Shown piece after piece: positions 43,546 to 48,525 of a DNA stretch of 64,000 nucleotides. This DNA comes from Taxawa tesnikishii (nom. ined.) (taxonomy: Eukaryota; Ascomycota; Dothideomycetes; Dothideales), in assembly GCA_030247885.1 (NCBI GenBank), contig JAPDRO010000022.1, positions 496,001 through 560,000 of the forward strand, read 5' to 3'. The notes beneath the pieces were generated by a model, which ran no database searches, was not told where the DNA came from, and worked only from the letters and a program-made list of their open reading frames with translations. Made by a program: the position numbers and the translations under genes. Numbering within the stretch: position 1 is the stretch's first letter; each line of letters opens with the position of its first letter.

Positions 43546-44333
43546 ATCTTCATGATCCGAATGATGCGGTCATCGGAGGTGGTATGAGCAGCTGAGAGGT
43601 TACTTAACTGTAGATCACCGCTTGAAACAAAGCAAGGGACGGGTCTTCGAAGGGCGAGCGTCGGATTGACAGTATCAGCCTTGAGCGTCTACCTTGTAAG
43701 TTGGAATACCGTCGCTTCGCACCTTGTGTCACTGTTTGCCAAAGCCGCACCCACGACCTCCGATATCTTGGCAGTCAAGCCCACCGCCTACCGGTTCGTA
43801 CATAAGGAGGATCGCAACTTCACAAACTTTTGTTAAGATCATACTTTGCGCGTTTTGAAGAGGCCTCTGTCACCTGATTATGCATGTGCCTAATCCTATG
43901 ACATTCAACAAGATCAGGCTAACTGCAAAGCAGCTCAGTTTAGGCCGTTGGCTTGCTCCGTGTTGGTGTACAAACGTCATTCCGCATCTCAAAGACATCT
44001 CTTTCTTCTTATGCAGCATTTCTCTGACAACATAGATAACAGTTGTTTGAGGTGTTGCAACCGGGTGGCGTCAAGTTGGCGCGCAGTGCTTGATTTTGTA
44101 CAGCGTCGAGAAGCTTGATACCAATACACTCCTGCAATATACTTTCGGCGACCCATTCTTAAAAAAACTGTGGCCTACGACGACATGTGCAGAAAGTCAA
44201 AAAAATCAGCATACTTATACGGCACGGTCGCTGCCCCTTGCCGTCCATCTGTCGCAACAGAATTTCAATACTCGTCGTGTCGCTCTCATCCTCCTTTGGA
44301 CACTCATACTATCGAAAACCTCTGCTTCCAACC
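43546..44333. other. Intergenic region, no supported gene
   Basis: No domain-bearing frame is present. The right part may contain additional 5' coding sequence of the next gene in another frame (44090-44330), which is Ser/Thr/Pro-rich. Confidence 0.35.
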
Positions 44334-45002
44334 ATGGCAGCTCTTCTTCTACTTCTCCCTCATGTCCTTCTCCCGCGACCACGCCTGAGAGAAACCCCGC
44401 GTCAAGCTGTCGAGGCCAGAAAAGCCAGTCCTACCGCGGCACAAGGTCGACTGCAACAACTGCCAAAGGAAGTCCTAGAGGAAATCTCCGAGCACATGGA
44501 TATCTTGACAATTCTGTGTCTTGAACGGACATGCACAAAGTTTCGACGCCTATTCGGTTTCGCACGCCATCCACGGGTTCTCACTCACCCGGAAAGGAGA
44601 GATTTTCTATTCGCGGTCGCAAAAGACGACGAATCTGCAGGTCGACTCCAGGGGCGGCGATGCTGTGCCTACTGCAAGAAAACACGCCCTTTTGCCCACT
44701 TCGCCCAGGAGCAGCTTGACGTGGCCGCCACAGAGCGTCACTGTCTGCGTCATTTCCGCATCGAGCCACGCAGAACCCCAATCTCGGTGACCGTCGACGA
44801 CGACGGGCAGTATTCCATGCAGTGTCGGCATCGCAACTGCAGCCAACCCAACCCGTGTCTGGGTTGTGGGCAGCTGAAGCGCCAGAGGCTGCTGCGTGGT
44901 CGCGGTCTGGGACATTATCCGGATATGATGCCTTGGCCTTGGGCAAACTTCTCTGAAAGACAGGAGCGTGGCTTCGAACATGCCGGAACTCCATACTCAT
45001 AA
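44334..45002 (+). CDS. F-box protein with cysteine-rich region
   Basis: The open frame has 223 aa from the ATG at 44334. An F-box is visible around residues 43-80 (LQQLPKEVLEEISEHMDIL ... LERTCTKFRRLF). After it lies a Cys/His-rich segment (CCAYCKKTRPFAHF, HCLRHF, QCRHRNC, CLGCGQLKRQ), arranged like paired CxxC zinc ligands found in many fungal F-box proteins. F-box proteins link substrates to SCF ubiquitin ligases. The N-terminus before the F-box is uncertain: a Leu-rich start in this frame and a Ser/Pro-rich alternative in the frame 44090-44524 are both possible, and a missing base in a C-run near 44396-44399 would join the latter. The C-terminus may continue in the frame 44968-45177. Confidence 0.6.
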   Translation: MAALLLLLPHVLLPRPRLRETPRQAVEARKASPTAAQGRLQQLPKEVLEEISEHMDILTILCLERTCTKFRRLFGFARHPRVLTHPERRDFLFAVAKDDESAGRLQGRRCCAYCKKTRPFAHFAQEQLDVAATERHCLRHFRIEPRRTPISVTVDDDGQYSMQCRHRNCSQPNPCLGCGQLKRQRLLRGRGLGHYPDMMPWPWANFSERQERGFEHAGTPYS

Positions 45003-45499
45003 CGGAAGCCAGCATCCTCGATCGGGCGGACTTCTCGTTACCTCAAATGACCATCAGAGAGAGATCTCGAAGAGAGACATCTCGCAGAGAGACTCAAAAA
45101 CGTCCAACATCTGGTTTTCCACACGGTTGCCCATTGCAGATTTGACAGGACGGTGCGAGGGTCATTTCAAAAGGTGATTGCAATGCGGAGGACAATGCAA
45201 CTATCAAGGCCATTCGGTGTCTTACACATGTACTTAGGAATGAGCGAGCACAGCTGTATAGTTCAATTCGAATGCTCGAGCTGTTTACCAATTTCCTAAC
45301 ATCCTTTGTGAGACCGAGACTGCTACTTACGGTCCGTAATCCGGAACGGTTCTCTCACGTGGCACTCTTTATTCCCACCAAGCCCTGATCGCTTGATTGA
45401 GTTGAGATCTCACTGTTTCTCCCGAAAGTGATACGCTTAGTAGTACCGTAGATGCGATGAAGTTACCACGCCAAAGTATGAGATTTGCATTCTTTTAAC
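45003..45499. other. Intergenic left flank of the hAT-type element
   Basis: There is a 70-codon frame at 44968-45177 (+), charged and without a motif. It could be a continuation of the F-box gene in another frame. The last 8 bases (45492-45499) are the left copy of the target-site duplication. Confidence 0.4.
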
Positions 45500-46285
45500 C
45501 AGGGTTGTCGGTGGATGGAGTTGATGGAACAGAGGGTACCGTTCCACCCACTCTATGGAGATTCTATACCAAGACCGTAGCATAGCTGCCGTTCCATTCC
45601 ATGGAGTAGAACGGGGGTGTATTCCGTTCCATGAAGTCCATGGAATCTCTATGGAGGGTAACCTTGACTATGAAATCGCTAGACAACTGCTCAAAGCAGG
45701 GCTCTAATAGTTAAAAAGTCATTAGGCATGGCATCAAGATTAACTGACTGCTATGTTGCGTAGTGTCAGCAGCTGAGGAGGTAGTAGTATCTGTTATAGG
45801 ACGTGTCGGATATCGAAACGCGAGATCGACGGCGGGACTGGAATCACGTTATTGAGCACGTGCCACCTGATTTCTCAACTTCTGAAGGATTGTCGTTAAG
45901 GATGCCTTCTCGTAGATAGGTACACACTAGCAACGAGTATCTAACACTACTGTTCATACACACCTACAACGTGACTATAGATCGACAAATCAGAAAACTT
46001 AACGTAATCTTATCTTGAAGGATTGGTGAGATCCGATGAGGCTTAGCATCTCCGCGGGGACCTAAAGTTCGAAGCTTATACCAACTTACTTTTCAACTTA
46101 GTACTAGTATTACTACTAGTGCTACTACTAGTATTACTACTATAACTATCACCTTACTCTATAGAGTATATGGAGTCACACTGTTCATTCCATTCCACTT
46201 TATGGAGTCAAAAGCACACTCCACCGCACTCCGTTAGAGTGGATAGAGTGCAGTGGATGGAGTGCTCTATCCATCGACAACCCTG
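45500..46285. mobile_element. Non-autonomous hAT-type transposon (MITE-like), 786 bp
   Basis: The two ends are inverted repeats of about 22 bp: the left end starts CAGGGTTGTCGGTGGATGGA, and the reverse complement of the right end starts CAGGGTTGTCGATGGATAGA. The flanks are perfect 8-bp direct repeats, CTTTTAAC at 45492-45499 and 46286-46293. Termini starting CAGGG and an 8-bp target duplication are established marks of the hAT superfamily. Both subterminal regions are crowded with copies of a CTCTATGGAG/CCATGGAG-like motif (for example 45551-45560, 45599-45606, 45647-45657, 46158-46176), as expected for transposase-binding sites. The interior is AT-rich and has no coding frame, so movement would need a transposase encoded elsewhere. 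The identical duplication suggests a recent insertion. Confidence 0.9.
46097..46150 (+). repeat. ACTAGTATTACT-type tandem repeat inside the element
   Basis: Degenerate trinucleotide-like repeats (ACTAGTATTACT, GCTACTACTAGT) lie between the AT-rich core and the right subterminal region of the hAT-type element. Confidence 0.8.
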
Positions 46286-46293
46286 CTTTTAAC
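46286..46293 (+). repeat. Right copy of the 8-bp target-site duplication
   Basis: CTTTTAAC is identical to 45492-45499 and directly abuts the right terminal inverted repeat. Confidence 0.92.
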
Positions 46294-47005: not shown

Positions 47006-48525
47006 CTAGTAGTTGTTGGAACGGCCAGAGGTGTCATGGATGCTGTCAGGCACAGCCCTCTCCACGCTCTCTGGAAGAGCTTCTTGCACGGACTGGGGCA
47101 CGTAGCTGTGACCAGTAGCGTGCGACTGACCACCCAATGTACCACCCTGGTTGTTACCGGTCAGGCCCGAACCCGTCGAGCTGCCGTATCCTCCAGTGCT
47201 GGAAGTATTGCCTGTCAAGCCAGAGCCGGTCGAGCTGCTGTACTCGCCGGTTGTGGATGAGCCGTAACCTCCAGCAGAGGAACCGTAACCTCCGGTGGAA
47301 GAAGTGTTACCGGTCAGACCAGAGGTGCCAGTGGTGCCGATGTTAGAATCGGAGGCTGGATCCAGCATCTCTCCGATACGGGTGGTGTGTGGCCCGTGGG
47401 CACCAATACCGGAGCCTGTAAGATGCCAAGTCAGCAATGGTTTAGTGTTGATGAACGATAGTTACTTACCCGACGATCCTGTGGTAGTGGAGGATGATCC
47501 AAGTCCGACCGCGTTCTTGATGGAGTCCATAAAACCAATAGGCTTGGATTCATCGTGGTGGTGGTGCAGATCCTGAGGGGTGGAGTAGTCCCCGCTAGTG
47601 GAGGATCCAAGGCCTGAGGATCCGAGTCCACCAGTTAGACCGCCAGTAGAGCCACCGAGACGTGTTGTCTCACCGGATGTCTGATCGTAGCGGCCTGAGG
47701 TGTCGCGGGAAGTGTCGTAGCCAGAGCCAAGGCCAGAGCCGTAGCCAGAGCCGGAGCCAAGGCCAGAGCCAGCACCGGAACCACCGTAGGAAGAGGTGTC
47801 ACGAGAGGTGTCGTAGTCCGAGCCGCCGTAGCCACCAGTGGTATTGCGACCTTGCGAGGAGGTGTCGTGGATTCTATCTGGAAGAGCCTCCTCAAGCCCT
47901 CTTGGAGCAGCGTCCTGAATGGCACCTGGGACCATGCTGTGACCGGTGGCGTGCGACCTGCCTCCGAGGACACCACCTTCACGGTCGTTGTCGCGGTCGT
48001 AGCCCTGCGCAGTCTCGTATCCTGGGCCACGGTCCTCATTTGCACTGCCGGCCAGCGCAGTGCCCATGCCGCCGGTACCAGGCCTTCCAGCAACGCCCTC
48101 CGAGCGTCCACTGCTCTCGCGAGCGTCGATGTCGCCGAGTTGTCTGTCGGTGTCATAACCCTCGGTACGACGGTCGTTGGTGGATGATGAGTAGTTGGCG
48201 GTGCCGGTGCCTAGGTGGGAGGTGCCGTGGCCGCCAATCTCTGAACGATCTTGACCACGTGGAGCATCTTGACCGTATGCAGAGGCGTCGTTTGCTGGAT
48301 CGTGGCTGGAGTGATCGGTGCCTGGATCGGCTCTTCCACTGTTGTCCCGCTCGTCGAGCTGTTCGTTCTTCTTGCCGACGTTGTCGTGGTGAGCTACACC
48401 GGACATGCCGGGCTTCATCTCCTGGCCGCCGCCATGTGGAACGTTGCCAACTGGGTGTTCCATACGACGGGGTCCTCCGGGCCAAGGTCACCTGGGAGGT
48501 GCTCTGGGACAGGCTGGTGAGACAT
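47006..48525 (-). CDS. Glycine/serine-rich hydrophilic repeat protein
   Basis: Two exons (47470-48525, 47006-47415; 54-bp intron) give about 488 aa. The start MSHQPVPEHLPGDLGPEDP joins RRMEHPVGNVPHGGG after one missing base in the run 48469-48472. The protein is hydrophilic, rich in Gly, Ser, Thr, Asp and Tyr, with no signal peptide or membrane helix. Repeats of GGYGSS, GSGLTGN and YDTSRDTS fill it. A longer module occurs twice, SHATGHSMVPGAIQDAAP...PDRIHDTS near the middle and SHATGHSYVPQSVQEALP...PDSIHDTS at the C-terminus. Low complexity and hydrophilicity resemble stress-protective or hydrophilin-like fungal proteins; function is unknown. Codon choice stays like that of its neighbours. 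Confidence 0.78.

Follow-up and report, generated by a model that had tools for sequence, protein, structure and literature searches.

Introduction

Fungal hAT transposons are known both as complete elements and as short derivatives that have lost their coding capacity. In the part of one report that deals with them, VdHAT1, Crypt1, Drifter, Tfo1, and Restless all have CAGNG ends, and VdHAT1 is 3,164 bp long, with an 8-bp duplication and a hAT dimerisation domain (PMC3441728). Hormin (Hornet1 in miniature) of Fusarium oxysporum, according to the sections describing it, is a 759-bp element with the terminal inverted repeat (TIR) CAGGGTTCAAATCCA, an 8-bp target-site duplication (TSD), and no transposase; one strain carries 72 identical sequences, and Hornet1 is the autonomous relative (PMC3428301). 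A partial account of Mycosphaerella (Zymoseptoria) graminicola lists one MITE family with an 8-9-bp duplication, as well as some MITE families that are alike in TIR and TSD and unlike inside (PMC4522978).

Here we describe an element that shares features with each of these. The closest published match, judged by those sections of the Hormin paper, is Hormin, which likewise is non-autonomous, has an 8-bp duplication, and has a TIR beginning CAGGGTT, after which the TIRs diverge (PMC3428301). The published Hormin primer and our element also share a 13-nt GGAATGG-repeat stretch, which is weak evidence of kinship because it is repeat-like, with 7-11 nt shared in six other copies. Unlike Hormin as presented there, the family described here consists of divergent copies without a known autonomous partner. 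VdHAT1, as far as its account goes, is similar in its CAGNG ends and 8-bp duplication, and differs in that our element lacks any ORF of 100 aa (PMC3441728). The likeness to the M. graminicola MITEs is one of description (PMC4522978).

No published family with these ends was found in the open-licence literature, in keeping with an earlier suggestion that the family might be undescribed. It is apparently so among fungal hAT elements, a provisional statement because it covers open-licence papers only. The finding adds an apparently undescribed family to a known kind of element and leaves the understanding of hAT transposition unchanged.

Anatomy of a putative non-autonomous hAT element

The element spans positions 45500-46285 (786 bp) of the window (the whole stretch of DNA that was analysed, 64 kb in length), with TIRs starting CAGGGTTGTCG. 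Its features are as follows.

45492..45499, no strand: left target-site duplication CTTTTAAC, the same at 8/8 positions as 46286-46293
45500..45520, plus strand: left TIR CAGGGTTGTCGGTGGATGGAG, from the sequence, a repeat search, and a TIR pattern search
45521..45660, no strand: left subterminal region, with five CTCCATGGAG-like motifs starting at 45551, 45597, 45627, 45636, and 45647
45801..46080, no strand: internal core ACGTGTCGG ... GAAGCTTATA, from BLAST strand and reading by eye
45850..45968, no strand: nested 119-bp repeat within the core, with ACGT at 45846-45849 and 45969-45972
46099..46151, no strand: degenerate TAC/TAG trinucleotide tract adjoining the core, from the repeat search, with comparable tracts in other copies
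46157..46264, no strand: right subterminal region, with two CTCCATGGAG-like motifs (starting at 46157 and 46198) and TCCACTCC/GGAGTGG-like repeats
46265..46285, minus strand: right TIR CTCTATCCATCGACAACCCTG (reverse complement CAGGGTTGTCGATGGATAGAG), from the sequence, the repeat search, and the TIR pattern search
46286..46293, no strand: right target-site duplication CTTTTAAC, from the sequence and flank comparison

The left and right TIRs (21 bp each) match at 19 of 21 positions, and a repeat search of the window returned inverted arms of 24 nt with 88% identity. The flanking octamers are identical, and shifting the pair by 1 to 6 bases leaves at most four of the eight positions matching. 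Perfect 11-bp inverted repeats lying 100-3000 bp apart and bordered by identical outer 8-mers occur as a sole pair in the 64-kb window and in none of 20 Markov shuffles of it. No ORF of at least 100 aa (allowing ATG, GTG, or TTG starts) overlaps the element, which lies ~0.5 kb downstream of an F-box-domain ORF (44187-45002, plus strand); across from this, the nearest listed ORF occupies 47006-47437 on the minus strand. These observations bear out what a preliminary description, made from the sequence, had reported: TIRs, identical 8-bp direct repeats, and no internal ORF. The only match in an Rfam search, to mir-885, was sub-threshold (19.6 bits against a gathering score of 66; E 0.39), and we read it as chance.

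The preliminary description had also called attention to subterminal motifs clustered on both arms, and their counts agree with this. Allowing up to two mismatches, the element contains seven CTCCATGGAG-like 10-mers, five in the left 200 bp, two in the right 160 bp, and none in the middle, compared with a mean of 0.26 and at most 2 in 200 shuffles. With a broader motif set, the counts were five on the left, three on the right, and none in the middle, and 0 of 300 shuffles of each arm reached the count of that arm. The left subterminal region also contains a CAAGACCGT stretch that is present in other copies. Enrichment was not general in the family, with CTCCATGGAG-like counts exceeding all 200 shuffles in three of seven copies (the window copy, L009, and L010), some of the motifs in L009 and L010 being internal, away from the ends. 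Counts in L021 and L051 were not above the shuffle maximum, and neither L036 (no motif) nor L037 (one) exceeded all 200 shuffles.

Related copies across the genome

A genome-wide search for copies with different 8-bp duplications had been proposed as a check on the hAT reading, with a single copy lacking related ends as the outcome that would speak against it. In the genome examined (29,367,862 bases in 34 contigs), which looks fungal from its size and from the genes and transposons it contains, we found 21 pieces matching the element, itself included. The TIR pattern, with up to three mismatches, occurred at 27 places, compared with three for a reversed control, and a shorter exact TIR pattern occurred at 29 places, compared with four for its control. 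Nine two-ended copies could be delimited, including that in the window, with lengths of 786, 631, 450, 1676, 198, 314, 612, ~838, and 378 bp, and duplicated octamers differ between several of them.

Because the duplications depend on where the ends are placed, we note how each pair of ends was set. Those of L009, L010, L032, L036, and L040 were paired by TIR alone, L040 being the shorter of two possible pairings; the boundaries of L021 and L051 came from alignment, with the L051 start shifted by one base after its flanks were viewed; and the second end of L037 was located with the aid of its duplication. Excluded from the nine were one-ended loci (L033, L034, L035, L038, L039, L041 to L047, L049, and L050) and relaxed pairs in L043, L045, and L012, together with a second pair in L010.

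The flank match peaked at a length of eight in all nine copies, at the exact ends in seven and three bases further out in the other two. At the exact ends, the octamers matched at 8/8 positions in the window copy, 7 in L009, 7 in L010, 8 in L032, 6 in L036, 7 in L037, and 6 in L021; three bases outside the set ends, they matched at 8/8 in L051, where the BLAST end is three bases short, and at 7/8 in L040, where three extra bases remain. The 6/8 match of L021 is equalled at +3. The duplication evidence from L037, L051, L040, and L021 is weaker, because their ends were chosen or adjusted using the duplication, the flanks, or a choice of pairing, or because of the tie at +3. One or two octamer mismatches occur in six of the eight two-ended copies outside the window and none in L032 and L051, and the window copy is the sole delimited copy that combines both CAGGG ends with a perfect octamer exactly at those ends. 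A search of the same genome for an empty site, using the joined flanks, returned their own locus and a 72-bp stretch on C29 (query 11-84) that did not cover the joint.

The family is thus non-autonomous and multi-copy, as had been claimed, and it has several hallmarks of MITEs, being short and non-coding, with TIRs and TSDs. It lacks the uniform size and high identity of MITEs: the eight two-ended copies without a Tc1 unit (see below) range from 198 to 838 bp, and identities of aligned pieces range from 64 to 83.5%.

Probable assignment to the hAT superfamily

Two features expected of fungal hAT elements are present, namely TIRs starting CAGNG and an 8-bp TSD, and the TA duplication of Tc1/mariner elements is not, the duplications here being 8 bp. 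That the element is a non-autonomous hAT-type element, as the preliminary description had proposed from its ends, is well supported; the assignment rests on ends and duplications, because the searches turned up no transposase bearing such ends. Taken together with the evidence on age presented below, we consider it very probable that the element is a non-autonomous, cut-and-paste hAT-type DNA transposon belonging to a family that looks old and is probably inactive in this genome.

An 8-bp duplication is not exclusive to hAT elements; one VdMULE is likewise given an 8-bp TSD in the part of the report concerned with it (PMC3441728). The ends might come from a different superfamily that makes duplications of 8 bp (MULE, KDZ/Zisupton, P, or Merlin), a reading that we regard as quite improbable given that the same partial source describes fungal hATs with CAGNG ends (PMC3441728) and that the ends of Hormin, where described, are CAGGGTT (PMC3428301). 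The KDZ profile PF18758 had no match in the genome, nor in any control genome, which makes its blank result uninformative.

Under the hAT assignment, the window element most likely works, by analogy, like fungal hAT elements with such ends. A hAT transposase supplied in trans would bind the repeated subterminal motifs and cut at the CAGGG ends, and insertion at staggered cuts would produce the 8-bp duplications. The element would thus have been moved in trans by an autonomous partner that has presumably since been lost or decayed.

Search for an autonomous partner

The preliminary description had inferred that a hAT transposase elsewhere in the genome moves the element. A six-frame genome search with PF05699 (hAT dimerisation) instead yielded one match (G000:C13:387779-387916; 26.6 bits, 138 bases), a 46-codon fragment with an internal TGA that appears from its sequence to be a fossil hAT fragment. 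The 10 kb around it contained no family TIR and nothing resembling the delimited elements. Because this search was a loose first look in which two candidates were scored, it does not prove that a hAT transposase is absent. PF14372 had no match in the genome, nor in any control genome, and is likewise uninformative. Pairing of TIRs up to 4 kb apart, a duplication-guided scan up to 5 kb, and relaxed pairing up to 2.5 kb, within fetched loci of 1.1-10 kb, revealed no long coding element except L032.

L032, the 1676-bp copy on contig C12, has family ends, a perfect 8-bp duplication, and a piece of Tc1-like transposase (HTH_Tnp_Tc3_2), and could on that basis be taken for the autonomous partner, which would make the family Tc1/mariner. 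We assign this reading a negligible probability and have rejected L032 as the partner. The transposase piece sits in a 1338-bp unit (L032:906-2243; G000:C12:1987105-1988442) that has its own inverted ends, CCTCGGCAAAAGTCTGCG, with TA on both sides, preceded by TGATA. Six further fetched copies of this unit (L058-L063; 1337-1338 bp), all with TGATA/TA borders, are 91.6-99.3% identical to it and have no listed family TIR within 5 kb. With its own inverted ends, its TA borders, and fetched copies elsewhere that have no listed family TIR nearby, the Tc1 unit is a nested insertion; the hAT-type element was there first and the Tc1/mariner unit arrived later.

Interiors and nested insertions

The internal core is at least partly common to seven copies (window, L009, L010, L021, L042, L049, and L051). 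Judged from the BLAST strand and by visual reading, the core keeps one orientation with respect to the arms in six of them and is reversed in L009, in which the inverted core (L009:482-637) is flanked by trinucleotide-repeat tracts. L032, L036, and L037 keep the family ends and have a different interior, so that the family's ends enclose at least two internal sequences. These observations would fit a more elaborate picture, which we offer tentatively and think more doubtful than not: a non-autonomous hAT-type group with at least two unrelated interiors behind the same ends, orphaned by decay of its autonomous partner (possibly through repeat-induced point mutation, RIP), in which the core can invert between trinucleotide-repeat borders, as in L009, and members evolve by swapping or flipping interiors while keeping the ends that the transposase recognises.

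The core of the window copy is itself interrupted by the nested 119-bp repeat, whose insertion point is uninterrupted in L009, L042, and L051. Relatives of this repeat lie at six further places (C29:171954, C34:899831, C10:66842, C4:146480, C32:954932, and C24:195819), and it is 75-81% identical to four relatives. The nested insertions order events in two copies, with a hAT-type element followed by a small dispersed repeat in the window and by a recently spread Tc1/mariner unit on C12.

The dispersed ~120-bp repeat has TG..CA-like ends, with a 4-bp duplication that is clear in the window (ACGT) and at C29 (GCGT) only. No full-length parent of it was seen, and our guess is that it is perhaps a solo LTR.

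Age of the family

The preliminary description had called the element recently inserted and its family young, a view that the analysis does not support. No near-identical sister copy was found in the genome: matches to the element of at least 100 bp are 64-82% identical, and one 54-bp piece is 91% identical. Among eight copies, aligned pieces are 64-83.5% identical (27 of 28 pairs listed), and true between-copy identities are lower because these figures cover BLAST pieces. In addition, the nested 119-bp insertion is absent from three sisters. The family therefore looks old in this genome and is probably inactive. The perfect octamer and both CAGGG ends of the window copy are weak evidence of youth, and this copy could conceivably have inserted later than its relatives, because it may already have carried the nested repeat when it made such a jump.

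Divergence need not be a record of time if RIP contributed to it. The usual RIP thresholds are about 0.89 for TA/AT and 1.03 for (CA+TG)/(AC+GT), and only three of eight copies, those in the window, L009, and L051, satisfy the two together. The TA/AT of the window copy is 1.22, at or above that of 99.7% of sliding 786-bp stretches of the window, although its TAC/TAG tract adds TA and thus partly raises the value; its (CA+TG)/(AC+GT) is 0.87, in the lowest 1% (element-overlapping stretches being included in both comparisons). The genome encodes three C-5 cytosine methylase domains, L053 (C31:700153-701319), L054 (C31:532576-533766), and L052 (C5:762542-763462), the last containing a stop (or an intron). 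L053 may resemble RID-type proteins, and the three could possibly be RIP machinery.

RIP is central to a competing account, in which the element is a recent insertion of a still-active hAT MITE family, RIP made the divergence within few generations, and the element already carried the nested insert at its last jump. Besides the perfect duplication, the well-kept TIRs, the RIP-like indices, and the methylase domains, this account can draw on the comparison of the window copy with L009, in which changes from CpA/TpG to TpA make up 31 of the 58 constant-context transitions. The same comparison also tells against it: of 118 substitutions (indels not counted), 79 are transitions and 39 are transversions, which RIP does not make. 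Across the family, the transition/transversion ratio is below 0.95 in seven of the 27 pairs listed, unlike RIP. Nor was a close source or sister copy found, or an intact hAT transposase. Finally, recent copies can stay recognisable in this genome, because five of the six further Tc1/mariner copies have kept 97.7-99.3% identity to the L032 unit (the sixth being 91.6% identical). We therefore judge a recent insertion unlikely and favor an old-looking family. RIP may add to the divergence without explaining all of it, as the transition excess is only moderate and several pairs lie near or below 1, and the divergence is a poor clock because RIP may inflate it.

Tc1/mariner units

Read from one ATG, the seven Tc1/mariner copies reach a first stop after 61 to 288 residues (introns not considered), so that most of them look broken, and from their sequences their spread looks recent. 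Tc1-like ends also bound three stretches of 6.8-7.9 kb, L055 (C15:108997-115829), L056 (C29:10779-17597), and L057 (C31:703901-711783), which seem to be Tc1 units that large inserts have interrupted, each at its own point (~341, 791, and 955 of 1338). L055 and L056 have 5.5-kb inserts with ~90% identity to each other, and the insert of L057 showed no match to that of L055.
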